Source: a virus
Virus record (IMG/VR): IMGVR_UViG_3300008267_001520
Coordinates: 1-38,847 of that record
Reading direction: 5' to 3' (one strand)
Length of the DNA stretch: 38,847 nucleotides
Part shown: positions 6,936-38,847 of the stretch, piece after piece
Layout of the letters: each line of letters opens with the position of its first letter
Position numbering within the stretch: position 1 is the first letter of the stretch
Program-made: the position numbers and the translations under genes
The notes under the pieces: model-generated
The model's input: the letters and a program-made list of their open reading frames with translations, nothing else
What the model was told of the DNA's origin: nothing
Databases searched by the model: none

Positions 6936-7508
6936 TTAATTCAATTTTTTGAATATCTGAACATTACCACCAGCACCATAACCACCAAGAGAACTTCCTC
7001 CATTATAAGAATAAACAGTTCCTTCAGCATTAGAAATGCCAATATCATTAGAAATAACTGCACTTCCTATCCTTAATCTACCGTAACCAATAGGTACAGC
7101 TATATTTCTATTTAAAACATTCCTAATTCCACCAATTATTGTTGAATTTGTTTTTACATCTTTAGGTTGTTTTGGGCTTAAAACTACTGCTAAAACAAAT
7201 GATAAAGCTATTAAAGTTAATCCAATTATTATCATTGTTGTTGGTTCAGATCCCTGTATGATAGGAAGTATTTTAACAGTAGATCCAGAATTTAAAATTT
7301 TACTATTTAATAAATGAGGCGGCATAATTTTGTCATCTATATAAACAACAAAATGCGTCATTGTTTTTTCTAAATCCTTATAAAATTTTGTTATTCTATT
7401 CGTATTGGCCTCTATAGCTTCAAAAACTTCTAAAACAGAATTCACGTTCAAATTCCATGAATTTCCTAAAGTTTTTCCCAAAACGCCTTCTAAAATTATG
7501 TTTATCAT
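6936..7508 (-). CDS. Tail tip assembly protein, lambda gpI-like
   Basis: 190 residues, similar in length to lambda gpI (about 220). The N-terminal ~80 residues have the I-family layout: a GxLGKxLG-like start (EGVLGKTLG), then SVLEVFEAIEAN, then a ubiquitin-like strand pattern ending in GSTVKILPII. A hydrophobic segment at residues 91-110 (MIIIGLTLIALSFVLAVVL) and a Gly-rich C-terminus (GGSSLGGYGAGG) follow, both normal for the family. The first four bases overlap the stop of the JAMM gene (ATGA), indicating translational coupling. Family knowledge: gpI is needed for tip assembly but its biochemical role is unclear. Confidence 0.82.
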   Translation of the reverse strand: MINIILEGVLGKTLGNSWNLNVNSVLEVFEAIEANTNRITKFYKDLEKTMTHFVVYIDDKIMPPHLLNSKILNSGSTVKILPIIQGSEPTTMIIIGLTLIALSFVLAVVLSPKQPKDVKTNSTIIGGIRNVLNRNIAVPIGYGRLRIGSAVISNDIGISNAEGTVYSYNGGSSLGGYGAGGNVQIFKKLN

Positions 7509-7843
7509 ATATTTTTATAATAAAACTCATCATTGTTTACACTATATAAAAGCATAGGCAAGTAAAAATATTTTTGATTTTCTAAGTCCCATTCAGAAAA
7601 TCCCTTTTCTTTTACATGTTTTGGATGACTATGAAAAACTATACACCCATCAGAATAATCACTGTCTCTTGGAGATATAAGGAAAAAGCTTTTAGGATCT
7701 GGATGAACGTTTGTCATTTTTTTAAAACAATAAACATTATGTTTTTTTACTAAAAAACCACACACCTCTTCATCAGAAGAAATGCTTTCTTTTCTTAAAT
7801 TCTCTAAAAGATTTTTATCAAGATCCTGGTAATTTATAATCAT
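7505..7843 (-). CDS. JAMM/MPN+ metallopeptidase, tail tip (N-terminal half of lambda gpK)
   Basis: 112 residues with the full zinc-peptidase signature: Glu26 in DEEVCGFLV, His71 and His73 in FHSHP, then Ser83 and Asp86 in FSEWD. The H-to-D spacing is two residues longer than the common HxH-x10-D. Lambda K joins a JAMM domain to an NlpC/P60 domain; here only the JAMM part exists and no NlpC/P60 gene is visible nearby. Its place between gpL-like and gpI-like genes matches K. It could process a tip or tape measure protein, or cleave cell-wall or ubiquitin-like isopeptide links; the target is not shown by the sequence. The ATG overlaps the frame-shifted C-terminus of the gpL-like gene by 26 bases (7818-7843). 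Confidence 0.88.
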   Translation of the reverse strand: MIINYQDLDKNLLENLRKESISSDEEVCGFLVKKHNVYCFKKMTNVHPDPKSFFLISPRDSDYSDGCIVFHSHPKHVKEKGFSEWDLENQKYFYLPMLLYSVNNDEFYYKNI

Positions 7844-17566: not shown

Positions 17567-20500
17567 TTATCTTTGATATATTTTACCACCGTATCTACTT
17601 TCATCTGAAATTACACCTTTAGCTATATCGGCAACACGTTTTGCCATTTGTTTAGAGAATGCAATATCATTCTTTTCGTAACTATTTGTATCAGAACCAT
17701 AAGTAGCTTTACCAGATCTATCAATATTGATAGAAATATTTGTAGCATTATTATTTGTATTATTATTTGTGCTTGTGCTATTATTATTTGTGCTATTAGA
17801 CATTGCGCCAGCATTCATAGCATTCATTGCGCCTAGTCCGTATTTTCGAACTGCGCTATTATTCATTACATATTCGCCACCAGTCAATAAAGCTGGAATA
17901 GTGTCTGATAACCTAGATCCATGAGGAACAAATCCACCTGAATTGAATCCTATCATTCCTCCTCTTTGACTTCCGATAGTTGTACTGAAGCTTGATACGT
18001 TTGAAGAACCCATGCCAGATCCTAAACTTGCTGGTTTAGCCTTTGCAGCACCACTACTTACAGCGCTTCCAGACGCACCTGCTTTAGCCAAACCACTCAT
18101 TCCAGCCGCCAAGAATAAAGATCCAGCAGTTCCAACCAAACTACTAATCAACTGAGCGTTCTTTTGTTTTTTAGCGAATGCGTCTTGAACACGTTTTTGT
18201 TCATTTGCAATAGCTTTTTCTCTCATTTTTTTGAAATAATCAGATTCAGAATATGCATAAGCTGTATAATCATTTTCATTTATAGCTCCAATATTTGATC
18301 TATTATATAATAGATTTTTTGTATAATCCATTTCTTGATCTTTATTCAAAGCCATTTCAGCTTCCATAGAAACATTTCCGCCAGACGCGAAACGAGGAGC
18401 CTGTTCAAAATTAAAAGTGTCTAAGGATTTTTTCCCACCCAATCTCTTTACGGCTTCTCTATTTAAAACATATTCACCATTTTCAAGCATAGCTGGATAT
18501 CTATCACCAGAACCCATACCGCTTACATATTGACCATTATTCGCTCTAATAACTCCTCCATGTTGATAGCCTATTCCTCTTGCAGAAACATTGCCCCCAG
18601 CTTGACCAAATAAAGCTCCAATACCAATTGAACCCAAAGCTTTTCCTATAGCCGCTCTTAAAACTTCTTGCATAAGAGTTTGACCAAAAGTAATAGCCAT
18701 ATCTTGAAAAGCATCTCCAATATCTTTAGTGCCTTTAGCTACATCCATCAAAGCATTAGTCATTCCATCTGCAAACATAGATGGAATTTCACGACCGAGT
18801 TTATATCCAATTCTATCAGCATCATCAATTAAAGAACTGAATCCTTCTTTGAACCCATATCTCATAGAAACGGATCTTCTTGCATTCCTTTCTTCTTCAT
18901 CATTTATTCTTTTTGCGATTTCTTCTTCCCTTATTTTACCTTGAATGATCTCTTGTTGAATATATTTTAGACTTTGTAATGTATTTTTTCTTTTTTTCTC
19001 TTCTTCTCCAGCAAATTTTAATTGCTCAACCTCAGAAATAGCTAGTTCTAAACTTTCAGAACTAGTTATATCTCTAACTCTTAAAGATCGAGCTTGCGCT
19101 CTTTGCAGAAATCCTCGGTTTTCAGTTGGAGATTCAGCATCAAGTCTATCAGCCTGAGCTATCAAATCTTTTCTTTGAATATCCATTATTTCTTTATATC
19201 CGGATTGAGCGGATCTTGCTTTTTCAATTGCTTGTTCTGAAATTCTTTTTTGAGAAGCATCCGCTCTTAATCTTGCTTTTTCAGTCGCTCTTCCTAATAC
19301 TCCCATTCCTAAAAAATTTCCTTCGTCAGCTAATCGACGCTCCATCGCATCTATTTCTAATTCAACTGTCGTTTTTCTTTCTAATTCTCGTCTTTGGCTT
19401 AAACCAGCCAATTCAATCTCTTGTTCCAATATATCAGATAAAATTAAATTATTTTTAGATTTAATTTCTTCTAGACCATATTGATTTCTTAATAAATTTT
19501 GATCATTTGTATATTTTTTACCCCTCTCTGACTCAGCAAGCGTAAAATTTCTTGTATTAGCGGTAAACATTTCATTAGCTTTAGGAGTTTCTGTGATTTG
19601 AGTTTTACCACTTAAAGTGGTAATCAAACCTTTCATATCACCTGTTTTTAAAAATTTATCAAAAGCTGGTTTTAATTGCTCTCTAATAAATGTTTCATCT
19701 TCAATTTCACTTGTCAAAGCTGCTAAATTTTTTGAATAAAAATCAAGAATCACTGAAGTGCTATTCGCTTTAAATTGAGCGGCTAATTTTTCAAGATTAA
19801 AGTCTCTTTTTATAGAAATAGCTTGCAACGCATCAATTGAAAAAGTTTCAATTCCTTGTTGAAAATCAAAAATAGCTGCTTTAATTTTTTCATCAAAATC
19901 GCTTTTTTCTAAATCTTCATTGATGTTATTTGTTTTTTTGGCTATGTCTTCTTCAACAGATAATCTAGCTTTTCTTAAATTACCTTGTTTTATTAATTTT
20001 TCTCTTAGAGCTTTTGCTTCGTCGGCATTCAGATTGCCAATTTCATTAAAAGCTGTAGCTATGTCTTTACCACTTGCACCAAAAAATAACGTTAAATACC
20101 TTTTTGTTCTTTCTTTGAATTGTTCGGAATCTTTTTTTAGATTTGGAGATTCTACTGATACTAATTTTTCTATATCAGCGCCAAGACTAGATATGATAGT
20201 AAGTCTATTTTTTTGAAACTGCATTGCTTCCGCTCTATTTGTTCCAGGATTTAATTCAAAATATTTTGTTACGCCTTCTTGAACTCTTTTTATTTCTTGT
20301 GGCGCTGAATCTGAAAAAGCTGCATATAGATTTGATGCGACTTCGCGAGGATCTTCAACACCTTTTTGTGCGCTTGATGTGAAGAAACTTCCTTCTCTAA
20401 GCGCTGAAAGAGCCGCTGAAGCAGATTGTCTTCTTCTTAAATCTGTATTAAAAGTTTGCAAAGCTTTTGACATGCTTTCAATATCACCTTTTGTTTTAGT

Positions 20501-23356
20501 AAAAGCTTCTGCTAATTTAGCATCTTTAATTTCAAGAAAACTATTTGATACTGCTTTTGATGCCGCTTTGATTTGAGATTCATTTGCGCCAGACGCTATT
20601 AAACGAGATAATTCTTGTTGTTTTTGTATATAATCAGAACCAGCCGATGAAGTTTTCTGCATTACTTCAATATTCTCTTGATCAATTTTTACCAACTCTT
20701 CTGTTGTTAACTGTGCAGCATTTAAAGCCGATGTTAGTCCAACAAGACTCCCGATTGTACCGCCAATTATAACCCCAGGAAGACCAAATGAAGCTCCGAT
20801 ACCTGCACCTGTGGTAGCAGCACTTAGACCCGTACTAAGCAATGACTGACCAACTCTTTCGCCAGATGTCATTTGAGTTCTCTGTCTATCGCCAAAAGCA
20901 AATTGTTCTGCAAATCCTGCTACTACAGGCCCTGCTAAAGATATTGCAGTACTAGCTTTCGAAAGACCTTTGGAAAATCTTGTTAATCTTGAATTACTAG
21001 CACCACCACCAGTACCGCCAGCACTACCACCAGCAGCAGCTACTTCTCTATTTAAAATCCTAGTTAAACTTGTTTGCGCTTTTGCAGATAAACCGGCTTG
21101 AGTATTTAAAGTGCTAAATGCAGTTGTGGCTTGTTGAGCATTCATTGCTCCATTTCTCAAAGCATTAATTATTCTATTAAATTCATCTCTAGCTCTTCTT
21201 TCTTGATCTGCTAAACTAAACCCTAAACCAGCAGAATATTGCGAAATACCACTACTAGGATCTACTACCGATCCTCTTCCAGAGTATCTATAAGATCTAG
21301 GAGCAAAATTTGGTACAAATCCTTTATTCATTAATCCAGCAGCTTTTTGACCTCTCATCGAATCACTCAAAGCATTACTTAAACCACCATGATCAGCAAT
21401 TGCGGAACTAAATGTTGGTTGACCGCTATTTCTGATGTGTGGAAAAGGTTTAGTATCAAAGATAGCTTTGTTACCACTCATGCTTTCTTCTAAGCCCATT
21501 ACTGCTTGTTTGTATGCAAAATTAGGTATAAAACCATCATATGTAGTATTTTTCTTAGCTTCGTATCTTCTTAATAAACCATCAGTAACTTTTGTGAGTT
21601 TTGCGCTTATTGATGGATCTACATTTGAATATTTATCTTTAACAATTGATGCAGCGGCCATTTCAAATTCGCTGAAATTTGCACCAGCATTTCTACCAGT
21701 AGGATCAGTAAATTTTGGTCTGTTCGAAACAGCAATCATTGAGCTAACTTTTTTAGCTAATACTGGATTTTCTTTTTCGAGATTCGCAAGTTTTTTATTC
21801 ATGAATCCAGTGACTGATCCAGAAATGTTTCTGAAATCTTGTTTCAACTCTAACATGCTGTATGAACCATCAGCTATTCTATATAATAAATCAAAATCAT
21901 TCTCATTTGCTATATCGCTTATAGGTTTGTCTCTAAATCCAACTTCTGATGGTCTTATTACTTGTTTAGATCCTAAAGCTATATTTAATGCAGATCTAAT
22001 AAAATCTTCATGCAAGTAAGAAAGCATGTTAGCATTTCCTTTTTTAGCGTATTCATGATCTGAACCTCTTCCATAAGTAGGAAAATCTCCCATCTTGAAA
22101 AGGTCTGCATCACCAGCAGCATTTTTATATTTACTAGAATATTTTTTAAACCAAGGAATACTTGCTGTAGTCATTGGAGTAGCAAAATTAGGAATAAAAC
22201 CGTCAAATAAAGGTATATTAGACGGATCAGTTGTTTTATTCTTTTTTTCTCTTTCGATGATCTTTTTAGATCTTGCGAAAAGATTAGCGTGTGTATATGG
22301 CGCTCTAAAAATATCAGCATTTTTATTTTGTTCTAATCTCTGGTCATAATCTGTACTCGCTGTTTTTGGAAGTATAAGACAACGGCCTTTTAATTTACCA
22401 TCACCAAAATTAGGATCATTATATGCAGCTTTTCCTGATAACTTAGCTTCTCTAATAGCGTATTTACCAATATCAACATCGGCTTTTACTTTATTTTCAG
22501 TCAATGATAAGTAAGATTCTCCACGAAGCAAAGATTCAAAAATTCTTCCTGCTAATATTTTATATTCTCCTTGCCCTTCCTTATCAAAATCTTTTGCCGC
22601 TAATCCAGTAATAGCAAAATTAGGAATAAATCCACTATTCATGTATGGATCAACACCTGTTCTACTTATAGCATTCTGTCTATGTGCGCGACCAGCTTTT
22701 GATCCAGCAGGAGGATTAATAAAAGGTTGAGCAAAACCAGGAATATATTTTACATCTTCAGCGGTATTCATTACTCCACCGACAGGAGAAGAAACAACTT
22801 TGCCGGGAGCGTATCCACCAGCTTGTGCGCCAACTACTTCAGCCATTCTTGTAGCAGCAGGAATATATCCTCCTGCGCGAGTGACTTGTAATCCACCAGA
22901 TCCTTTTACTCTTACTCCTTGAGTAGCTAATTGAGCAGCCAATTGTTTAGCAAGAGTTGACTGTGTTTGATATTCTGCTGTCTGCTGTCTAGCTATTTGA
23001 AGCAGCAATTGCGCTTGCGCTGCTTGATTACCCATCAGTCCCGCAAGAGCCTGAGAAGCTGGCCCTTGTTGCTGCATGATTTGCAAAATAGATTGTTCAA
23101 TATTTTTTCTATTCTGTGTTTCTGTAGTAATGCCAGCAATCTGAGGCAAAGCCTGAGCTAGATAAGTAAAAGAATTTTGTATTAATTTGAAAAGCGTAAA
23201 GAAAGCAGCAATAGCACCGGGACCAGCTATTACATTTCTAATACCTTTTAATAAACCATTTGCAAAAGTAGAACCAACTCCTTCTCCTTCAAGAATTTCA
23301 TTCATTGATTCAACGAATGATTTTAATTGTTCTGTCTCTTTGTAAAGCACCAGCAT
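17567..23356 (-). CDS. Tape measure protein, main body with FIPNFA-bounded nuclease-like modules
   Basis: 1929 codons; really the continuation of the TP901-type N-terminus at 23310-24260, entered by a +1 frame change. Layout: hydrophobic helices ~40-75; Gln/Ala-rich region 85-150; four heptads GF(I/V)PNFA at residues 242, 386, 608 and 679 bounding three modules; Gly/Ala-rich hydrophobic stretch ~820-870; long charged helical and coiled-coil region to ~1540; hydrophobic ITFGQTLMQEVLRAAIGKALGSIGIG; then two copies of the tape measure C-terminal motif GG...GD/SDxxPAxLxxGEYVxNxxAVxxxG (around residues 1600-1640 and 1800-1840). A tape measure sets tail length and passes into the host envelope at DNA ejection. 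Family rule of about 0.15 nm per residue would give roughly 270-335 nm of tail. The two modules at 249-607 are unusual. Confidence 0.88.
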   Translation of the reverse strand: MLVLYKETEQLKSFVESMNEILEGEGVGSTFANGLLKGIRNVIAGPGAIAAFFTLFKLIQNSFTYLAQALPQIAGITTETQNRKNIEQSILQIMQQQGPASQALAGLMGNQAAQAQLLLQIARQQTAEYQTQSTLAKQLAAQLATQGVRVKGSGGLQVTRAGGYIPAATRMAEVVGAQAGGYAPGKVVSSPVGGVMNTAEDVKYIPGFAQPFINPPAGSKAGRAHRQNAISRTGVDPYMNSGFIPNFAITGLAAKDFDKEGQGEYKILAGRIFESLLRGESYLSLTENKVKADVDIGKYAIREAKLSGKAAYNDPNFGDGKLKGRCLILPKTASTDYDQRLEQNKNADIFRAPYTHANLFARSKKIIEREKKNKTTDPSNIPLFDGFIPNFATPMTTASIPWFKKYSSKYKNAAGDADLFKMGDFPTYGRGSDHEYAKKGNANMLSYLHEDFIRSALNIALGSKQVIRPSEVGFRDKPISDIANENDFDLLYRIADGSYSMLELKQDFRNISGSVTGFMNKKLANLEKENPVLAKKVSSMIAVSNRPKFTDPTGRNAGANFSEFEMAAASIVKDKYSNVDPSISAKLTKVTDGLLRRYEAKKNTTYDGFIPNFAYKQAVMGLEESMSGNKAIFDTKPFPHIRNSGQPTFSSAIADHGGLSNALSDSMRGQKAAGLMNKGFVPNFAPRSYRYSGRGSVVDPSSGISQYSAGLGFSLADQERRARDEFNRIINALRNGAMNAQQATTAFSTLNTQAGLSAKAQTSLTRILNREVAAAGGSAGGTGGGASNSRLTRFSKGLSKASTAISLAGPVVAGFAEQFAFGDRQRTQMTSGERVGQSLLSTGLSAATTGAGIGASFGLPGVIIGGTIGSLVGLTSALNAAQLTTEELVKIDQENIEVMQKTSSAGSDYIQKQQELSRLIASGANESQIKAASKAVSNSFLEIKDAKLAEAFTKTKGDIESMSKALQTFNTDLRRRQSASAALSALREGSFFTSSAQKGVEDPREVASNLYAAFSDSAPQEIKRVQEGVTKYFELNPGTNRAEAMQFQKNRLTIISSLGADIEKLVSVESPNLKKDSEQFKERTKRYLTLFFGASGKDIATAFNEIGNLNADEAKALREKLIKQGNLRKARLSVEEDIAKKTNNINEDLEKSDFDEKIKAAIFDFQQGIETFSIDALQAISIKRDFNLEKLAAQFKANSTSVILDFYSKNLAALTSEIEDETFIREQLKPAFDKFLKTGDMKGLITTLSGKTQITETPKANEMFTANTRNFTLAESERGKKYTNDQNLLRNQYGLEEIKSKNNLILSDILEQEIELAGLSQRRELERKTTVELEIDAMERRLADEGNFLGMGVLGRATEKARLRADASQKRISEQAIEKARSAQSGYKEIMDIQRKDLIAQADRLDAESPTENRGFLQRAQARSLRVRDITSSESLELAISEVEQLKFAGEEEKKRKNTLQSLKYIQQEIIQGKIREEEIAKRINDEEERNARRSVSMRYGFKEGFSSLIDDADRIGYKLGREIPSMFADGMTNALMDVAKGTKDIGDAFQDMAITFGQTLMQEVLRAAIGKALGSIGIGALFGQAGGNVSARGIGYQHGGVIRANNGQYVSGMGSGDRYPAMLENGEYVLNREAVKRLGGKKSLDTFNFEQAPRFASGGNVSMEAEMALNKDQEMDYTKNLLYNRSNIGAINENDYTAYAYSESDYFKKMREKAIANEQKRVQDAFAKKQKNAQLISSLVGTAGSLFLAAGMSGLAKAGASGSAVSSGAAKAKPASLGSGMGSSNVSSFSTTIGSQRGGMIGFNSGGFVPHGSRLSDTIPALLTGGEYVMNNSAVRKYGLGAMNAMNAGAMSNSTNNNSTSTNNNTNNNATNISINIDRSGKATYGSDTNSYEKNDIAFSKQMAKRVADIAKGVISDESRYGGKIYQR
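21323..21514 (-). other. Tape measure module 3, unrecognised short domain
   Basis: Residues 615-678 between heptads 3 and 4. Contains AIFDTKPFPHIRNSGQP, then IADHGGLSNALSDSM and a short basic helix. No catalytic pattern recognised. Its His, Asp and Gly-Gly residues look conserved in type but I cannot name a family. Confidence 0.4.
21536..22180 (-). other. Tape measure module 2: PD-(D/E)XK nuclease-like
   Basis: Residues 393-607, between GFIPNFA heptads 2 and 3. YLHEDFIRSAL gives a helix Glu450; ENDFDLLY gives Asp487/Asp489; MLELKQDF gives Glu503-x-Lys505 on a following strand. The E...D...E-x-K order is the same as in module 1 but the surrounding sequence is different, so this is not a simple duplication. 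The C-terminal part is helical and basic. Confidence 0.5.
22202..22612 (-). other. Tape measure module 1: PD-(D/E)XK nuclease-like
   Basis: Residues 249-385 of the tape measure ORF, between two GFIPNFA heptads. It shows GRIFESLL (Glu274), then KADVDI (Asp293/Asp295) and, seven residues later, REAKLSG (Glu303-x-Lys305), the order and spacing of the PD-(D/E)XK active site (helix Glu, strand Asp, strand E-x-K). The remainder is basic. Whether it is an active nuclease is inference. Confidence 0.5.
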
Positions 23357-24260
23357 ACACGCCTTGTGATTTATTTAAATCTCCGACAATAGCTTTAAGA
23401 ATGTTAACCTGATAAACACCTGCAACTTGTTCAGATAATTGCGCTCTTTGAGCGTCAGCCAAATTTTTATACGCACCAGCAAAATTTTGAAGAATTGTAA
23501 CTGCTGGCAAAATGTTACCTTGAACATCTCTAACCGCAATATTAAAAGCTTCTAATTGGTCCAGTGTTTCGCTGCGCTGCAAACGTGTAAAAATTGTTTT
23601 TAATGCGTTACCAATAACTGCACCACCTCTTGCAGTACTTTGTTGAGCGGCTGTAACCAACGCATTCAACTGATCTAAGCTTACTCCCGCTTCTTGTGCT
23701 GCTTGACCTGTACGAGATAACGCTTCTGCCAAATCTCCTGCTCCAACAGCGTAATCTTGCTCAACCGCAACTAGCTTATTTAATATTTGAGTTGTTGTTA
23801 CCCCAGTTGCAGCAAAACCGTTTACAGTCGAAGTTAAAGCATCTACAGCATTTGCAGTTCCTATTCCTGCTAATCTTGTTAAAGTCAAAGCGTCTTTTGT
23901 TCTTGTTAAAACGTCTTCAGCTTTTAAACCTTGACGAGAGAATTCAAGAGCGGCTTTAGAAGCGTCATCAAATGTAGAAGCCGTTTGCTTACCAACATTA
24001 AATAATTCAGTACTAAACTTTTGCAATTGACTAGTGCTTAAACCGAATACACGATTAATATCTGCAAGATTTTTTTCTACATCTATAGTGACACTAGCTA
24101 ATTCTTTAAAACTACGAATAACACCGCCAAGAACAGCAGTAGAAGCACCGAAATTAAGCTGATTATTCTGAGCGAATCTTTGATTGTACGCTTGAACACC
24201 AGCCTGAATAGAAGCGGTTAATGCTGCTTGATTGGCGGCGACATTAATTTGAACTGCCAT
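23310..24260 (-). CDS. Tape measure protein, N-terminal TP901-type domain
   Basis: 316 residues. Strong match by pattern to the TP901/PhageMin_Tail core: VEKNLADINRVFG, FDDASKAALEFSRQGL, AVDALTSTVNGFAATGV, LNKLVAVEQDYAVGAGDLAEALSRTGQAAQEAGV, and TARGGAVIGNALKTIFTRLQR. The ORF ends QRDRTIKIIR-TGA, while the +1 frame continues as ETEQLKSFVESMNEILEG into the 1929-aa ORF. Removing one A from the CAAAGAG stretch gives ALQETEQLKSF, a natural helix. So 17567-24260 is most likely one protein of ~2230 residues. The start has AAGGA seven to eight bases upstream (AAGGAATATG), one of the few clear Shine-Dalgarno sites here, preceded by a CGTGTAA motif. Confidence 0.88.
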   Translation of the reverse strand: MAVQINVAANQAALTASIQAGVQAYNQRFAQNNQLNFGASTAVLGGVIRSFKELASVTIDVEKNLADINRVFGLSTSQLQKFSTELFNVGKQTASTFDDASKAALEFSRQGLKAEDVLTRTKDALTLTRLAGIGTANAVDALTSTVNGFAATGVTTTQILNKLVAVEQDYAVGAGDLAEALSRTGQAAQEAGVSLDQLNALVTAAQQSTARGGAVIGNALKTIFTRLQRSETLDQLEAFNIAVRDVQGNILPAVTILQNFAGAYKNLADAQRAQLSEQVAGVYQVNILKAIVGDLNKSQGVYAGALQRDRTIKIIR

Positions 24261-26096: not shown

Positions 26097-26552
26097 ATGG
26101 CTACGAATCTTATATCTGCTTCACAAAGAGTCGCACTCAATGCGACTATGGAGGATATTCATGAGACATTTGCTCGCGAAATTACTGTTTTTAAAGAAGC
26201 TTCTCAGATTGTGATTATAACTGATCCTAATTTTAATCCATTATATAATACCGCTGGTCAAACCACTTCATATGTAAATACACCTGTTTACAAGACATTT
26301 AAAGTTAGAATACAATATAACGACGATATTGGTAAAAAATATTGGAGTGAATCTGGTTTGGCTTCACAAATCAAACTAGAAGCTGTCGTCGGCTCTGTTA
26401 GAATTAAGATAAGAGCAGAAGATTATGAATATATAAAAGATGGTCGTCGCTTTGATGTAGATGGAAAAAGATTTGTTTTAAATTCTACTTTTAGACCACA
26501 CGGCTTATTCGACAATCAATTTTATACTCTTTATCTCAAACCTGATCCATAA
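26097..26552 (+). CDS. Head-tail completion (head closure-like) protein candidate
   Basis: 151 residues, beta-rich. The C-terminal half (VRIKIRAEDYEYIKDGRRFDVDGKRF, HGLFDNQFYTLYLKPDP) has the pattern of head-closure/stopper proteins, where an I/V-x-D-G strand is followed by a surface loop and a final Y-x-L strand. It is first in a rightward unit of four ending in the tube protein, the normal order closure, gp10-like, terminator, tube. The AGTGTAA motif precedes the ATG. Alternative: a minor neck protein of unknown type. Confidence 0.62.
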   Translation: MATNLISASQRVALNATMEDIHETFAREITVFKEASQIVIITDPNFNPLYNTAGQTTSYVNTPVYKTFKVRIQYNDDIGKKYWSESGLASQIKLEAVVGSVRIKIRAEDYEYIKDGRRFDVDGKRFVLNSTFRPHGLFDNQFYTLYLKPDP

Positions 26553-26555
26553 GAT

Positions 26556-27137
26556 ATGAACCCCGAATGGATAAAAATGTTTCAAGATTTGCAAGCTGAC
26601 AAAGAATATCGAAAAGAAATAAATAGAGTAATTGATCAAGAATTTAATAAAATAAAAAATGAATTCATTGACGAATTCATGAATCATCCTATTACTCAGG
26701 AAATTAAAGGCGGAATAAGCGCCACAAACTCATCAAATACACTTGGCGGGATTACTAATTTATATTCTTTTATTGGATTTGATGAAGGAACTGATCCTAT
26801 TAGACCAATAGAAGAACTATTAAAAAAATCAAATTATAGAATATTATTTAATAACAGATCTGTTGAAGCTACAGTAATTTTTGATATACCAACTGCTGCT
26901 CAGATATTTGAAATAACTCCTATGCCTTGGGCAGTTGGAAGAAGTTGGGCTAGAGGCATAGAAACAGGAATTTCTGGTCTTGGATATTATCTCAAAAAAA
27001 CTAAGAACAGTCGTTCAGGTTTAGGCGTACAAACCACAAATCAACAAATCAGATCTGGAGTTATGTTTAAAAATTCTAAATACATATCTGATTTAATAAA
27101 TAGATTCAATAAAGAATTAAAACAGTTAAATAAATAA
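26556..27137 (+). CDS. Neck / tail completion protein candidate (HK97 gp10-like position)
   Basis: 193 residues. N-terminal ~50 residues are a charged amphipathic helix (DKEYRKEINRVIDQEFNKIK). The middle has LYSFIGFDEGTDPIRPIEELLKK followed by a strand-rich part (YRILFNNRSVEATVIFDIP) and a basic GLGYYLKKTKNSRSGLGVQ loop. I connect this with gp10-like tail completion proteins because of its place and the helix-plus-beta layout, but the similarity is weak. Starts 3 bases after the preceding stop. Confidence 0.58.
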   Translation: MNPEWIKMFQDLQADKEYRKEINRVIDQEFNKIKNEFIDEFMNHPITQEIKGGISATNSSNTLGGITNLYSFIGFDEGTDPIRPIEELLKKSNYRILFNNRSVEATVIFDIPTAAQIFEITPMPWAVGRSWARGIETGISGLGYYLKKTKNSRSGLGVQTTNQQIRSGVMFKNSKYISDLINRFNKELKQLNK

Positions 27138-27142
27138 AACAC

Positions 27143-28003
27143 ATGAAACCCACTTTTTCACATAATGTAGTAAACAGTTTCTTTTTATGGTTCGATAATT
27201 TTTTAATGACCAAAGGGGATGCCTATAAAACATATACAACAAAATTATATAGTAATCCTGATTTCAGATTAGGAAATGATAAAGTTGCTTATAGTTCTCC
27301 ATATAAACAATGGGTATATGACAAAAGCATAACAGGGGCCACAATTCCTAGTGGATTCACTGTCAATGGAACTTTCTTACCAACTGGAACTAGCGGAATG
27401 AAAATTGATTTTGATAATGGACGTATAATATTCAATAGTGGAGTTCCAACTAACTTAAATATTTCTGGAACATATTCTGTAAAAGAAATAAATAGTTATG
27501 TAACTGATCAACCTGAAGATAATTTAATCATCGAAGGAAAATACATTAATAACAGCAGATTCACTGTTGTTGAAACTGGTATTGCTCCTTATAATCCGGT
27601 AACTCCCTGCATATTTGCTTCATTAGAAACTGCTCACAATACAGCTTTTGCATTTGGCGGCGAAGATGAGAGTAAATGTATTTTTAAAGTTGTAGCCTTT
27701 TGCGAAAATTTATATCAATTAGATGGAGTATTAAGTATTTTTGGTGATTCTTATAATGAAATTTTTAGCATTATTCCAATGACCGCACATCCTCTTGGAG
27801 AATTCAATGAAATAAAAACAGGTCTATATCCTACTGGATATGATTATAATTCTGTAAAAAAAACCTATGGTTCAGAAACTCTTTTTATATCTCACGTTGA
27901 AACATCAAAAATACGAGATAGCGTTTTAAAAGAATTGAACCCTATATTACACATAGGATTTTTAGATTTTGAAATCAAAACTTATAGATATCCTAGATTA
28001 TAA
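27143..28003 (+). CDS. Neck/tail terminator-position structural protein, unrecognised
   Basis: 286 residues, mixed alpha/beta, with a helix SHNVVNSFFLWFDNFLMTKGDAYKTY and central beta segments (GTYSVKEINSYVT, TRFTVVETGIAP-like strands) and a C-terminal FLDFEIKTYRYPRL. No family recognised. Placed directly before the tube gene, where a tail terminator or neck protein is expected, though it is roughly twice the length of lambda gpU. Gap to the next gene is 45 bases. Confidence 0.55.
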   Translation: MKPTFSHNVVNSFFLWFDNFLMTKGDAYKTYTTKLYSNPDFRLGNDKVAYSSPYKQWVYDKSITGATIPSGFTVNGTFLPTGTSGMKIDFDNGRIIFNSGVPTNLNISGTYSVKEINSYVTDQPEDNLIIEGKYINNSRFTVVETGIAPYNPVTPCIFASLETAHNTAFAFGGEDESKCIFKVVAFCENLYQLDGVLSIFGDSYNEIFSIIPMTAHPLGEFNEIKTGLYPTGYDYNSVKKTYGSETLFISHVETSKIRDSVLKELNPILHIGFLDFEIKTYRYPRL

Positions 28004-28048
28004 AAATTTCACAACAATAAACTAATAACATTTTAAATAAATAAAAAT

Positions 28049-29287
28049 ATGGCAAGAAATCGTGTAATTTACCAAAGTCAAGCGCTTTTTATCGCTCCTA
28101 GCTCAACTGGATGTCAAGTATCTGGTGCTTCATCCGCTCCATTCGGACCAACTACCCCTGCTCAATTGACAGGTGGTTTAAGTTTAATAAAAAAGCTAGA
28201 TCGCGTTCAAAATTGTAATTTTAATTTTACAATTAATCGTCAAGATATCAACGAGTTCGGTAAACTAGCTCGTATTGATTCTATCGTTATGGAATCTCCA
28301 ACAGTTGGTTTGGACTTCAGTTATTATGTAACTGATGGTCTAAATGAAAGATTGATGGGATTCAATATGTTTAGCACAAATGATACCGCTAATACTATTT
28401 TAGCCGCACAATCTATTTCTGGACTTCTTGGAGATCTACAAGGAAATAACTATTATATTCTAACTGTACAAGAAGGTGAAGACGTAGTTGGAACTCCTTC
28501 ATCTACAACTCCAGCCGATTCAAACACAATTGTTGGAATTGGTAATGGATTTATCAGTGAATATAGTTTTGATGCTTCAGTTGGCGCTATTCCAACAGCA
28601 AGTGTTACTGTTGAAGCTTTTAATATTAAAGCTGATGCTTTAACAGGAAGAGCAGATGGCATTATAACTGGAACTTCTCCAGCTATTGATATTCTTTCAA
28701 GTCCAGCAGTTAAATTTACTGGTACTGGTAAATCATATGCAATTTCTGGTGCATTTACAACTGGAGTTTCTAACGTAACAGCATTGAGACCAGGAGATAT
28801 TGTTCTATCATTAAGTAATCCTGATGGTATGATTGATGTAAGTGGCGGCAATTCAGCCCATATTCAATCATTCCAATTCACAATTCCATTGAGCAGAACA
28901 ATTTTACAACGTCTTGGAAATACATTCGGTTTCGCAAGAGTTATCAATGTTCCAATTAACATGGATATAACTATAAGTGCTATTGTTTCTGAATTGAAGA
29001 CGATGAATCTTTTTGACAAACTCACAACAGGAACAAAGAGCAACTTCTCAATTACCTTGAACGATTATAGTAATGCTCCAAAAGTTAGATATGGAATTTC
29101 TGGCGCACTCTTGTCTTCAGAAACTTATTCTGAAAATCTTGGAGATAATCAAACCGTTGATTTAACATTCAACGTTCAACTTGGTGGCGCAAACGATATA
29201 GAAAATGGCGTATTTATGTCTGGATCATATCCTGCTGACGCTATCGTCAAAGAATTCTATAAACTTGGTACTGGTAAACTAGATTAA
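28049..29287 (+). CDS. Major tail tube protein
   Basis: 412 residues, no membrane segments, regular beta pattern. Key blocks: NCNFNFTINRQDINEFGKLARIDSIVMESPTVGLDFSYYVTDGLNE, which resembles tail tube proteins (strand-loop-strand with a tube-inner FGK loop); GFISEYSFDASVGAIPT; HIQSFQFTIPLSRTILQRLG; NLFDKLTTG; and a C-terminal LGDNQTVDLTFNVQLGG. The gene is last in the rightward unit and followed by a strong terminator, as expected for an abundant structural protein. An Ig-like insertion around residues 150-245 is possible. Start ATG is preceded by TTTAAATAAATAAAAAT, no Shine-Dalgarno. Confidence 0.8.
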   Translation: MARNRVIYQSQALFIAPSSTGCQVSGASSAPFGPTTPAQLTGGLSLIKKLDRVQNCNFNFTINRQDINEFGKLARIDSIVMESPTVGLDFSYYVTDGLNERLMGFNMFSTNDTANTILAAQSISGLLGDLQGNNYYILTVQEGEDVVGTPSSTTPADSNTIVGIGNGFISEYSFDASVGAIPTASVTVEAFNIKADALTGRADGIITGTSPAIDILSSPAVKFTGTGKSYAISGAFTTGVSNVTALRPGDIVLSLSNPDGMIDVSGGNSAHIQSFQFTIPLSRTILQRLGNTFGFARVINVPINMDITISAIVSELKTMNLFDKLTTGTKSNFSITLNDYSNAPKVRYGISGALLSSETYSENLGDNQTVDLTFNVQLGGANDIENGVFMSGSYPADAIVKEFYKLGTGKLD

Positions 29288-36960: not shown

Positions 36961-38847
36961 TTAAATTAATCTTCTGAATTTAAATACGTAGCTTGATGCG
37001 CCATTTGTGCTTACACTGGATATAATTTGTAATTTTAAATTAGTACCACCAGAAAGTTGTCTTATTGTTCTAAGATTTATATAAGCTCCATTTGGGGCAT
37101 GACCAGATTTATGTAATACAATTTCATCATAATCTGTTGCATTTGTTCCTGTACTAAACCAACTCATTATACCTGTATAAGTTTCTTGATAGTGTCCACC
37201 GTTGACTGCATAATTATCAACATAAAGACTTATCATATAACAACCTGTTGCTAAATTTGCGCCAATAATACCAGTATCTAACCAACTAGTAGTTATTGTT
37301 AATGATTTTGTAATAGTAGTTAATCTAAATAATGCTGTAGAATCCGTACCATCAACATCATTGCGAACATAACTTGCAGCAGCAACGCCACCGAGTTGAG
37401 AGGAATTTGTTGCTGTCGCGGCATTACCTGAAATACTTCCCGTAATAGTATTTGCTACAGTTAGTCCTACTAAATTGCTGGTGCTTGCTGCGTCAATATA
37501 ATAAGCAGTATTATTACTGTCATAAAATATTGGTGCGCGAAAATCCGAATTACTTGATACAGCGTTTGTACCAACAAAACTAACTGTTACAGTTGGAGGT
37601 GTTGCATTTGCAGTAAATACAGTTGTTGCTGCTGGCCCACCTAAATAAATTGTTGTGGCACTTGCGTCATATTTTAATCCAGCCCAAGCATTCCAATCCC
37701 AACTTGTCGATGTACTAAATCTTAATTGAGTTAAATTTCTTAAAACTATTTCTGAACTGCTGACATTTGAAACAGTTACGCTACCGGGAAGAGTTAAATA
37801 ACCATCACTACCACTTCTATTCAAAATTGCAGCATTTAAATTACTTACCGACGCTGGATCAACATAAAACGCAGTATTATTAGAATCATAAAATATAGGA
37901 GCGCGAAAATCTGTATCAGAAAAAGCTATTCCTGAAACATGAAACTTCTGAGTAGGAATTGTTCCAATACCAACAAGACCAGCTTTTGTTATTCTAATGT
38001 TATTATTTATTTGAGTTCCACCATTATTAGAACCAAATACTAAATCATCTGTTGAATCTAAACCAGTATAACCTACATAATGATTACCATCAGCATTTGC
38101 AACTTCGCGTCTCCAACGTAAACCTCCCCATGTTGAAGTTGTTGGCATCGTAAATGACAAACCTTCAGCCCATGCTGATGATACTGGAGCAACTACTATA
38201 TTCCCAGCTACAGATAATTTTTGACTTGGACTAGCATTTGATATTCCTACATTAGTTCCATTATCAAAAACAATACTATTACCAACTGTAGAAGATGAAT
38301 TAAATTTAACTAAATAATTTGTTGTGCCTGAAACTGAAACGCTGGTTCCAGAAGATCCGCTGGTTCCGCTGCTTCCAGAAGATCCGCTGGTTCCGCTGCT
38401 TCCAGAAGATCCGCTAGTTCCACTACTTCCAGAAGATCCGCTAGTTCCGCTGCTTCCAGATGAACCGCTAGTTCCACTACTTCCAGAAGATCCGCTAGTT
38501 CCGCTGCTTCCAGATGAACCGCTAGTTCCAGAAGAACCGTTAGTTCCAGATGAACCGCTAGTTCCATTTTTTCCAGAAGATCCGCTGGTTCCACTACTTC
38601 CAGAAGATCCGCTGGTTCCACTACTTCCAGAAGATCCGCTAGTTCCACTACTTCCAGAAGATCCGCTAGTTCCGCTGCTCCCAGAAGATCCGCTAGTTCC
38701 ACTACTTCCAGAAGAACCGCTAGTTCCAGAAGAACCGTTAGTTCCAGAAGATCCGCTAGTTCCACTACTTCCAGAAGAACCGCTGGTTCCAGAAGAACCG
38801 TTAGTTCCAGAAGATCCGCTAGTTCCACTACTTCCAGAAGAACCGCT
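36961..38847 (-). CDS. Tail fibre protein with collagen-like tract (5' end beyond window)
   Basis: The frame is open from 38847 to a stop at 36961 (629 codons visible); an apparent TTG start at 38160 is internal, because the same frame continues upstream into the Gly-X-Y tract. Order: Gly-X-Y tract; VSVSGTTNYLVKFN; VGISNASPSQKLSVAGN; VGIGTIPTQKFHVSG; two copies of FRAPIFYDSNNT-x-[YF]Y-x-D-x-AS; and a C-terminal domain with WLDTGIIGANL, TYTGIMSWFSTG, YDEIVLHKSGHA, LRTIR and a final FKFRRLI. That C-terminal domain is a frequent receptor-binding end of phage fibres. It probably forms a side fibre or works with the adjacent 1645-aa fibre. Confidence 0.82.
   Translation of the reverse strand, partial: SGSSGSSGTSGSSGTNGSSGTSGSSGSSGTSGSSGTNGSSGTSGSSGSSGTSGSSGSSGTSGSSGSSGTSGSSGSSGTSGSSGSSGTSGSSGKNGTSGSSGTNGSSGTSGSSGSSGTSGSSGSSGTSGSSGSSGTSGSSGSSGTSGSSGSSGTSGSSGSSGTSGSSGTSVSVSGTTNYLVKFNSSSTVGNSIVFDNGTNVGISNASPSQKLSVAGNIVVAPVSSAWAEGLSFTMPTTSTWGGLRWRREVANADGNHYVGYTGLDSTDDLVFGSNNGGTQINNNIRITKAGLVGIGTIPTQKFHVSGIAFSDTDFRAPIFYDSNNTAFYVDPASVSNLNAAILNRSGSDGYLTLPGSVTVSNVSSSEIVLRNLTQLRFSTSTSWDWNAWAGLKYDASATTIYLGGPAATTVFTANATPPTVTVSFVGTNAVSSNSDFRAPIFYDSNNTAYYIDAASTSNLVGLTVANTITGSISGNAATATNSSQLGGVAAASYVRNDVDGTDSTALFRLTTITKSLTITTSWLDTGIIGANLATGCYMISLYVDNYAVNGGHYQETYTGIMSWFSTGTNATDYDEIVLHKSGHAPNGAYINLRTIRQLSGGTNLKLQIISSVSTNGASSYVFKFRRLI
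38341..38847 (-). repeat. Collagen-like Gly-X-Y tract (runs off the window edge)
   Basis: 169 Gly-X-Y residues in the frame of the fibre gene, units GSS, GTS, plus GTN and one GKN. DNA copies are nearly identical to those in the 289-984 tract, and the last 27 bases of the window match units there. The window therefore ends inside a repeat, where assemblies often break or collapse. Confidence 0.9.

Follow-up and report, generated by a model that had tools for sequence, protein, structure and literature searches.

Analysis of a 38,847-nucleotide stretch of viral DNA (IMG/VR record IMGVR_UViG_3300008267_001520, positions 1 to 38,847; hereafter the window) showed that it encodes a phage tape measure protein in which 2 discrete, exchangeable cassettes, modules 1 and 2, are housed between copies of a conserved heptad. 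We consider it probable that this region serves as a cargo bay of heptad-bounded exchangeable cassettes, that modules 1 and 2 are nucleases and that they are delivered at infection. A bolder reading, to which we would give slightly less than an even chance, is that the protein represents a widespread, undescribed class of tape measure, a reloadable effector magazine whose constant frame of tail ruler and membrane-insertion parts is filled mostly with PD-(D/E)XK nucleases that are injected into the host cytoplasm at the onset of infection.

The window protein is a phage tape measure. A Pfam profile search matched it to PF10145 with 97 bits against a cut-off of 33.2 (E = 1.6e-27), annotated phage tape measures match both its N- and C-terminal parts, and it sits among tail genes, with tail-tip genes after it: the same run includes genes resembling lambda L (PF05100) and lambda J (PF13550/PF24801). 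The tape measure starts upstream of the main open frame (P0001), in the ORF at 23310-24260, a point absent from the original prediction made on this DNA. Compared with relatives that have one intact ORF, 105 nt are missing from the window in frame and a further 146 nt with a frameshift, at about 24152/24153 and 23335/23336, respectively. The residue numbers of the original prediction are those of the 1929-aa minus-strand ORF at 17567-23356, on which window positions 22612-21536 correspond to residues 249-607 (Table 1).

Table 1. Positions in the window of the tape measure reading frames, heptads, cassettes and candidate catalytic residues.
Feature	Position	Strand	Basis
Main open frame of the tape measure (P0001), 1929 aa	17567..23356	-	C-terminal part matches annotated mycobacteriophage tape measures and PHROG tape measure families
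N-terminal tape measure part, 316 aa, separated by frameshift	23310..24260	-	PF10145 PhageMin_Tail, E = 1.6e-27; single ORF in L002-L011
Hydrophobic segment ahead of cassettes, residues 38-56 of P0001	23189..23245	-	
Heptad 1, GFIPNFA, residues 242-248	22613..22633	-	sequence
Module 1 (residues 249-385), PD-(D/E)XK-like cassette, Glu274, Asp293, Glu303-x-Lys305	22202..22612	-	homologues L134, L135/L107, L136/L071; unrelated same-slot cassettes in near relatives
Glu274 codon, invariant	22535..22537	-	
Asp293 codon, invariant	22478..22480	-	
Glu303-Ala304-Lys305 codons, Glu and Lys invariant	22442..22450	-	
Heptad 2, GFIPNFA, residues 386-392	22181..22201	-	sequence
Module 2 (residues 393-607), PD-(D/E)XK-like cassette, Glu450, Asp489, Glu503-x-Lys505	21536..22180	-	diverged homologues; dN/dS
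Glu450 codon, invariant	22007..22009	-	
Asp489 codon, invariant	21890..21892	-	
Glu503-Leu504-Lys505 codons, 503 Glu or Asp, Lys505 invariant	21842..21850	-	
Heptad 3, GFIPNFA, residues 608-614	21515..21535	-	sequence
Constant linker, 64 aa (YKQAVMGLEESMSGNKAIFDTK...), separating the last two heptads	21323..21514	-	found in module 2 relatives
Heptad 4, GFVPNFA, residues 679-685	21302..21322	-	sequence
Hydrophobic, glycine-zipper-like segment behind cassettes, residues 846-875	20732..20821	-	

The placing of 2 different modules between GFIPNFA heptads of a tape measure, as predicted, was borne out, with heptads beginning at residues 242, 386 and 608; the series runs on downstream to residue 679, which the prediction had missed. 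In all 20 related tape measures having a full N-terminus (20/20), the first heptad occupies amino acids 628-634. With regard to the constant linker, 37 of the 114 heptad tape measures have a YKQ stretch. The 4 window heptads differ from one another at synonymous sites, indicating conservation that is stronger at the protein than at the DNA level. An intein reading was dropped, as the splice-junction residues are absent and the heptad is a conserved protein sequence; the open-access literature yielded no paper containing GFIPNFA. The cassettes are internal, with about 1200 aa of tape measure downstream of them, and are flanked by hydrophobic segments: the related tape measures listed also have one about 200 aa ahead of the first heptad, and one follows within 350 aa of the last heptad in 80 of 89 tape measures, such a segment falling inside the cassette region in 11 of 106.

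Comparison with close relatives established that the modules are discrete and exchangeable. Between the window protein and L002, identity is 96% in the 240 aa leading up to heptad 1 and 95% in module 2, yet the cassette that separates these parts is unrelated; L002 and L004 are likewise 93% identical before the cassette, 26% within it and 97% after it. Behind module 2, the next slot is filled by a GNAT-like module in L002 and by a different one (ART-like by eye) in L006, and is empty in L007. Heptad-delimited cassettes were collected from 114 non-identical tape measures and fall into 116 module types, whose classes by Pfam include staphylococcal nuclease (PF00565, E = 1.9e-9), GNAT and P-loop-like; the kinase-, HAD- and ART-like labels of some cassettes were given by eye only, and the ART label was not confirmed by Pfam. 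Across the group a single polypeptide carries several different effector domains, and the 2 window cassettes belong to one class. No match and no relative was found among cultured phages, and a scan of bacterial genomes located heptad tape measures only in 2 metagenome bins (L182 and L194), which are probably co-binned phage, so that a prophage origin was rejected.

All the residues named in the original prediction (Glu274, Asp293/295, Glu303 and Lys305 in module 1; Glu450, Asp487/489, Glu503 and Lys505 in module 2) are at their positions, and the expectation that homologues would keep them holds for the E / D / [E,D]-x-K set, with Asp295 and Asp487 dropping out. In module 1, aligned over 6 sequences of 4 lineages with 33-64% identity, Glu274, Asp293, Glu303 and Lys305 are invariant, unlike Asp295. 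In module 2, aligned over 21 sequences, the diverged members of which are 25-28% identical to it, Glu450, Asp489 and Lys505 never change, Glu or Asp stands at position 503, and Asp487 varies. Both modules are under purifying selection, with dN/dS of about 0.2-0.3 for module 1, where synonymous sites are near-saturated, and 0.11-0.19 for module 2, the values together spanning 0.11-0.31. The 2 modules lie in unrelated flanking sequence, as had been proposed: neither matches the other significantly, and in hhalign comparisons with other module families each scored significantly only with its own family.

From these residue sets, which follow the order helix-Glu, Asp, [Glu/Asp]-x-Lys, we infer for modules 1 and 2 both the fold and the catalysis of nucleases, as divergent domains of the PD-(D/E)XK type; they share with the UPF0102/YraN and Mrr_cat families the order Glu, Asp, [ED/Q]-x-Lys. 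The main alternative, which we regard as unlikely, is that the pattern arose by chance on a different fold, with the modules serving for binding or structure or as enzymes of some other class. It draws on the outcome of the direct comparisons, in which the predicted restriction endonuclease-like fold, an alpha-beta-beta-beta-alpha-beta core with its catalytic residues clustered, was not confirmed while the tape measure, the exchangeable cassettes and the conserved residues of the same prediction stood. AlphaFold modelled module 1 with middling confidence (pLDDT 65.5, pTM 0.58), Foldseek and VIA-align gave no significant fold match for this model, and the module 2 model was unusable (pLDDT 41.7). 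The fold ranking of module 1 placed unrelated PLP enzymes at Z of about 2.5 and EndoMS (5gkj) at Z 2.4 among unrelated rows, and EndoMS was not counted as support. Searches with modules 1 and 2 by HMMER against Pfam and PDB and by hhalign against known nuclease families, UPF0102 and Mrr_cat included, returned no significant match, and NCBIfam, PHROGs and Pfam gave no meaningful match to the modules or their families. The hhalign scores of module 1 to nuclease families are no better than controls, a response-regulator control ranking level with them; the best alignments of module 2 to VRR_NUC, UPF0102 and Mrr_cat do place its Asp and Glu-x-Lys on catalytic residues, none being significant alone.

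Against a coincidence on another fold, it is exactly the E/D/ExK residues that are invariant across diverged homologues, and 3 further lines of evidence point to nucleases. A signature of the form G-x-x-[FY]-E-x(18-70)-[ED]-x-K occurs in 45 of the 116 module types, which are partly interrelated and therefore not 45 independent cases, compared with 1.7 +/- 1.3 in shuffled modules (maximum 6 in 500) and with 6 of 544 (1.1%) non-cargo tape measure pieces of equal length. When hhalign register was scored, the module Glu fell on the catalytic Glu of Mrr_cat or UPF0102 in 21 of 90 comparisons (random Glu 2.0, maximum 7), the module Lys on the catalytic Lys in 13 of 135 (random Lys 0.7, maximum 4), and both did so in 9 comparisons. 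Finally, the cassette that takes the slot of module 1 beside module 2 in another contig (L008:5329-5979) matches the PD-(D/E)XK family UPF0102 (hhalign 90%, E = 1.9e-6). This UPF0102-like module in the same slot, together with the staphylococcal nuclease cassette, makes nuclease cargo in the heptad tape measures credible. A match of a 47-sequence core profile to plant hemopexin-type lectins in PDB (whole-sequence E of about 1e-5) was rejected as chance, since single stretches reached only 0.17 and 2.1 and covered just the G-x-x-F-E half.

If the modules are nucleases, they could still be selfish. In a homing-like process they would cut the cassette-free tape measure genes of co-infecting phages, and repair at the heptads would copy the cassette in, so that cassettes would be kept by their own spread and not by acting on the host. 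The quick like-for-like turnover of nuclease-like cassettes within one slot, the short conserved motif at each junction and the nuclease-like signature in many modules would all fit such behaviour. Yet other cassettes belong to the non-nuclease classes listed above, the heptads are conserved more as protein than as DNA, and the nucleases are translated within a structural protein, which together make this explanation quite improbable.

The cassettes could also be dead spacers of nuclease origin whose one contribution is extra length, by which the tail length is adjusted or the tube filled. Tail length is set by the length of the tape measure, and the related proteins, which differ in cassette content, have lengths between 2309 and 3135 aa; spacers, however, would need neither an invariant Glu/Asp/Glu-x-Lys set nor a mixture of enzyme families, and we judge this possibility very unlikely. 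A misjoining of the modules in metagenome assembly, for which the N-terminal frameshift and the in-frame gap, as blemishes of the record, might speak, is scarcely tenable: independent contigs already contradict it, as module 2 recurs along with its heptads in 11 others at 85-96% identity and module 1 in the same slot type of L134, and the frames are open with low dN/dS.

In the proposed cargo bay, the soluble stretch from about residue 629, between the 2 hydrophobic segments, would accommodate several enzyme-like cassettes in a row, with a GF[I/V]PNFA heptad at the boundary of each. Recombination between phages would take place at the heptad boundaries, with the result that the content of a slot would turn over fast while the tape measure frame persists. 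The cassettes would lie extended inside the tail tube along with the remaining tape measure; given the geometry of the lumen, folded domains are unlikely there, so refolding after ejection must be assumed. Tape measures are normally ejected at infection, and it is on tape measure biology that the case for delivery into the host draws: the hydrophobic segments may insert into the host envelope, the loop between them would reach the cytoplasmic side, and the nucleases, once refolded, could act there on nucleic acid at an early stage; candidate substrates are DNA or RNA from the host, a plasmid or a rival phage. For lambda, work that included proximity labelling during infection showed the tape measure acting at the inner membrane as the genome enters (PMC13190303). 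The heptad itself might serve for docking or packing inside the tube, or as a processing site at which cassettes are released; a JAMM-type protein encoded at 7505-7843 is a candidate for cleaving it. Speaking against the proposal, the producing cell would have to tolerate many nuclease copies with no immunity gene seen beside the tape measure, a difficulty unless toxicity is moot late in lysis.

Should this cargo bay operate as suggested, the tape measure would be, besides a ruler and a pore, a general carrier of proteins whose action precedes all phage gene expression, at the stage where host defences settle the outcome. The cassettes would then constitute a large untapped store of nucleases, other effectors and modules able to counter defence systems. 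A survey of phage protein mosaicism reported tape measure mosaicism by sequence with no recent case that could be confirmed (PMC10684548); the heptad cassettes provide recent, clear module exchange in tape measures, and the heptad is a simple handle both for finding more of them and for experiments on how enzymes are carried in, and released from, a tail.

We found no description of heptad-cassette tape measures in the open-access literature. Among virion-delivered effector proteins, we rate the heptad cassettes as polyvalent-like cassettes housed in a tape measure. Polyvalent proteins (Iyer et al. 2017, PMC5512222) likewise carry many effector domains per polypeptide, nuclease, ART and GNAT domains included, and are proposed to be injected with the genome, but their description makes no link to tape measures (the word 'tape' is absent from that paper), and the separation of their domains is ascribed to peptidase domains within the polypeptide, in place of a fixed heptad between cassettes. 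In MuF polymorphic toxins (PMC5576092) a phage structural protein also carries variable toxin domains with proposed delivery at infection; there the carrier is head/portal-associated, the toxin is C-terminal and the phages are mostly temperate phages of Firmicutes, whereas here the carrier is a tape measure, and the cassettes lie internally and are nearly absent from bacterial genomes. No MuF family was detected in a Pfam scan of P0001. Polymorphic toxin systems in general combine a C-terminal variable toxin with an adjacent immunity gene, and the window tape measure has neither feature: no small unassigned gene adjoins it in the window or in relatives, where the neighbours, judged by gene layout only, are further tail-type genes.

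Precedents for an internal enzyme domain acting at genome entry are tape measures that carry motifs of cell-wall hydrolases, for instance those of mycobacteriophage TM4 and of enterococcal phages (PMC10194240). They target peptidoglycan, in contrast to the nuclease-like and other non-wall classes described here, and lack the several cassettes per protein that are exchangeable at the heptad. Sle1 and Tme of contractile injection systems (PMC13277306) share the evolutionary tie between tape measures and injected effectors; they are effectors of host-encoded nanomachines, and the parts of that source consulted do not mention heptad-bounded internal cassettes. The T6SS DNase Tde1 (PMC10240207) combines an Ntox15 domain with an immunity protein and has no heptads or cassette series, but its nuclease sits beside a glycine zipper, a feature shared with tape measures, that is required for translocation, and the window protein similarly has a glycine-zipper-like segment after its cassettes.

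By sequence comparison, the window protein carrying modules 1 and 2 (residues 249-385 and 393-607) is a tape measure, as originally predicted, because its N-terminal piece matches PF10145 and its N- and C-terminal parts match tape measures annotated in cultured phages. Tail genes of the lambda L and J type follow further along the same strand. The tape measure is a single ORF of 2309-3135 aa in related loci (L numbers) and is split by a frameshift in the window. Compared with L002 and L007, two stretches are missing from the window: 105 nt at about 24152/24153, in frame, and 146 nt at about 23335/23336, the gap that breaks the frame; both lie in the N-terminal part and leave the modules unaffected. 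These gaps are real in the record and may reflect biology or assembly.

Features of the window discussed in the text
Feature	Position	Strand	Details
Main tape measure ORF, 1929 aa	17567-23356	minus	modules at residues 249-607
N-terminal tape measure piece	23310-24260	minus	PF10145 PhageMin_Tail, E=1.6e-27
GFIPNFA heptads	residues 242, 386, 608	minus	in the 1929-aa ORF
GFVPNFA heptad	residue 679	minus	in the 1929-aa ORF
JAB/JAMM-type stand-alone protein	7505-7843		HSHP motif; PF14464, 3.7e-5, 24 bits, just below cut-off 25
Connector- and tail-tube-like genes	26097-29287	plus	divergent from minus-strand tape measure run
27-nt tandem repeat, both record ends	289-987; 38346-38847		26 copies; 18 copies

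Every acidic and lysine residue named in the original prediction was present at its position in both modules. Direct search of viral contigs found no close relative of module 1; homologues occurred inside other heptad tape measures (L134, 65%; L135/L107, 49%; L136/L071, 28%), with Glu274, Asp293, Glu303 and Lys305 invariant and Asp295 variable. Module 2 was found at full length and 85-96% identity in 11 contigs, partially in a twelfth, and at 25-29% identity in many further relatives, with Glu450, Asp489 and Lys505 invariant, Glu or Asp at position 503 and Asp487 lost. This invariance and the low dN/dS (0.11-0.19 for module 2; 0.22-0.31 for module 1, with synonymous sites near-saturated) indicate that it is the motif residues that selection preserves.

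Among modules from the heptad tape measure matches listed, the signature G-x-x-[FY]-E-x(18-70)-[ED]-x-K was present in 45 of 116 types, many of these related to one another, compared with 1.7 ± 1.3 (maximum 6) in 500 shuffles and 6/544 non-cargo tape measure pieces; the exact pattern was composed after the modules were seen, its elements having already been stated from the two window modules. Aligned cores share a hydrophobic-Asp-hydrophobic step between its two halves. As an independent test, we assembled three known PD-(D/E)XK families (UPF0102, Mrr_cat and VRR_NUC) and two unrelated ones from bacterial genomes and compared the modules with them; the known nuclease families recognised one another under these conditions (UPF0102 with Mrr_cat at 72-87%). 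The top match of all modules was that of an L008 cassette to UPF0102 (90%, E=1.9e-6), and this cassette occupies module 1's slot, immediately ahead of module 2. Of 90 comparisons with Mrr_cat or UPF0102, 21 aligned the motif Glu exactly with the catalytic Glu (against 2.0 for random Glu, 7 at most). The motif Lys fell on the catalytic Lys in 13 of 135 comparisons (against 0.7 for random Lys, 4 at most), and nine aligned both residues. This agreement in register is support for the nuclease reading, not proof, because the common G-x-x-F-E motif itself attracts alignment. The best alignments of module 2 to VRR_NUC, UPF0102 and Mrr_cat placed Asp489 and Glu503-x-Lys505 on catalytic residues, at probabilities of just 0.06-2%. 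One heptad cassette, that of L112, clearly belongs to the staphylococcal nucleases (PF00565, E=1.9e-9), and therefore nucleases as such occur in heptad slots. The PD-(D/E)XK fold originally proposed for modules 1 and 2 is only probable, because AlphaFold confidence was middling for module 1 (pLDDT 65.5, pTM 0.58) and low for module 2 (pLDDT 41.7), fold searches with the module 1 model gave no significant match and HMMER against Pfam and PDB sequences matched neither module.

A degenerate DNA pattern for GFIPNFA matched at least 120 stretches in viral contigs, and these matches with other fetched loci comprised at least 114 non-identical heptad tape measures, some incomplete, and at least 116 types of heptad-bounded module at 38% identity. 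The first heptad lies at residue 628-634 in 20/20 tape measures with a complete N-terminus among the matches listed. Between the window and L002, the 240 aa preceding heptad 1 are 96% and module 2 is 95% identical, with unrelated cassettes in between; L002 and L004 share 93%, then 26% in the cassette, then 97%. Since near-identical flanks enclose unrelated cassettes, cassette exchange is, on these alignments, recent, and the swaps look like the genuine recent tape measure mosaicism that a survey of phage proteins could not confirm (PMC10684548). The slot after module 2 holds a GNAT-like cassette in L002 (PF00583, 23.4 bits, cut-off 20.7), a different one, ART-like by eye, in L006 and none in L007. 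Other cassettes resemble, by eye, protein kinases (L067, L033, L050), HAD phosphatases (L030, L105) and a GHKL/HSP90-type ATPase (L036:3194-12820, minus frame, residues about 954-1759; RESLQNAVAHG...DVGTGM...GLSGFGMGK).

Heptad tape measures were nearly absent from bacterial genomes, where only two were found (L182 and L194, in bins named Proteobacteria and Flavobacteriales; they may hint at hosts or be co-binned phage), and cultured phage records gave no match. This scarcity may explain why they were overlooked, and is the chief obstacle to a quick test.

Tape measure ejection is established for studied phages. Among the matches listed, 80 of 89 sufficiently complete tape measures have a hydrophobic segment within 350 aa after the last heptad (median 121), and just 11 of 106 have one within the cassette region; in those listed individually, another lies about 200 aa ahead of the first heptad. 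The segment after the cassettes is glycine-zipper-like. A T6SS DNase effector translocates by a glycine zipper that it shares with some tape measures (PMC10240207), and as lambda DNA enters the cell the phage's tape measure is located at proteins of the inner membrane (PMC13190303). In our preferred reading, the cassettes would be a soluble loop, flanked by segments that insert into the membrane, and would leave the virion with the ejected tape measure, refold and then act in the cytoplasm; for heptad tape measures we infer ejection, cytoplasmic delivery and the cassettes' substrates. The heptad, preceded by an Ala/Ser-rich context, may serve for docking or may be where processing occurs, in which case the JAMM-type protein is, speculatively, a candidate protease. 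That protein, from the tail-tip region, lacks the NlpC/P60 part found in lambda K.

Polyvalent proteins (PMC5512222) and MuF toxins (PMC5576092) likewise carry varied effectors in the virion, whereas here a tape measure serves as carrier and its cassettes lie internally, bounded by heptads. A polymorphic toxin system was rejected by the tests made, the cassettes not being C-terminal and having, by gene layout, no adjacent immunity gene. In the open-access published papers searched, we found neither the heptad string nor any account of tape measures that carry nuclease cassettes.

The split of the siphovirus tail module between plus and minus strands is unusual. On the minus strand, the 27-nt repeat encodes part of a fibre-type protein, a stretch of (GSSGTSGSSG)n that is collagen-like, and the assembly probably broke within this repeat.
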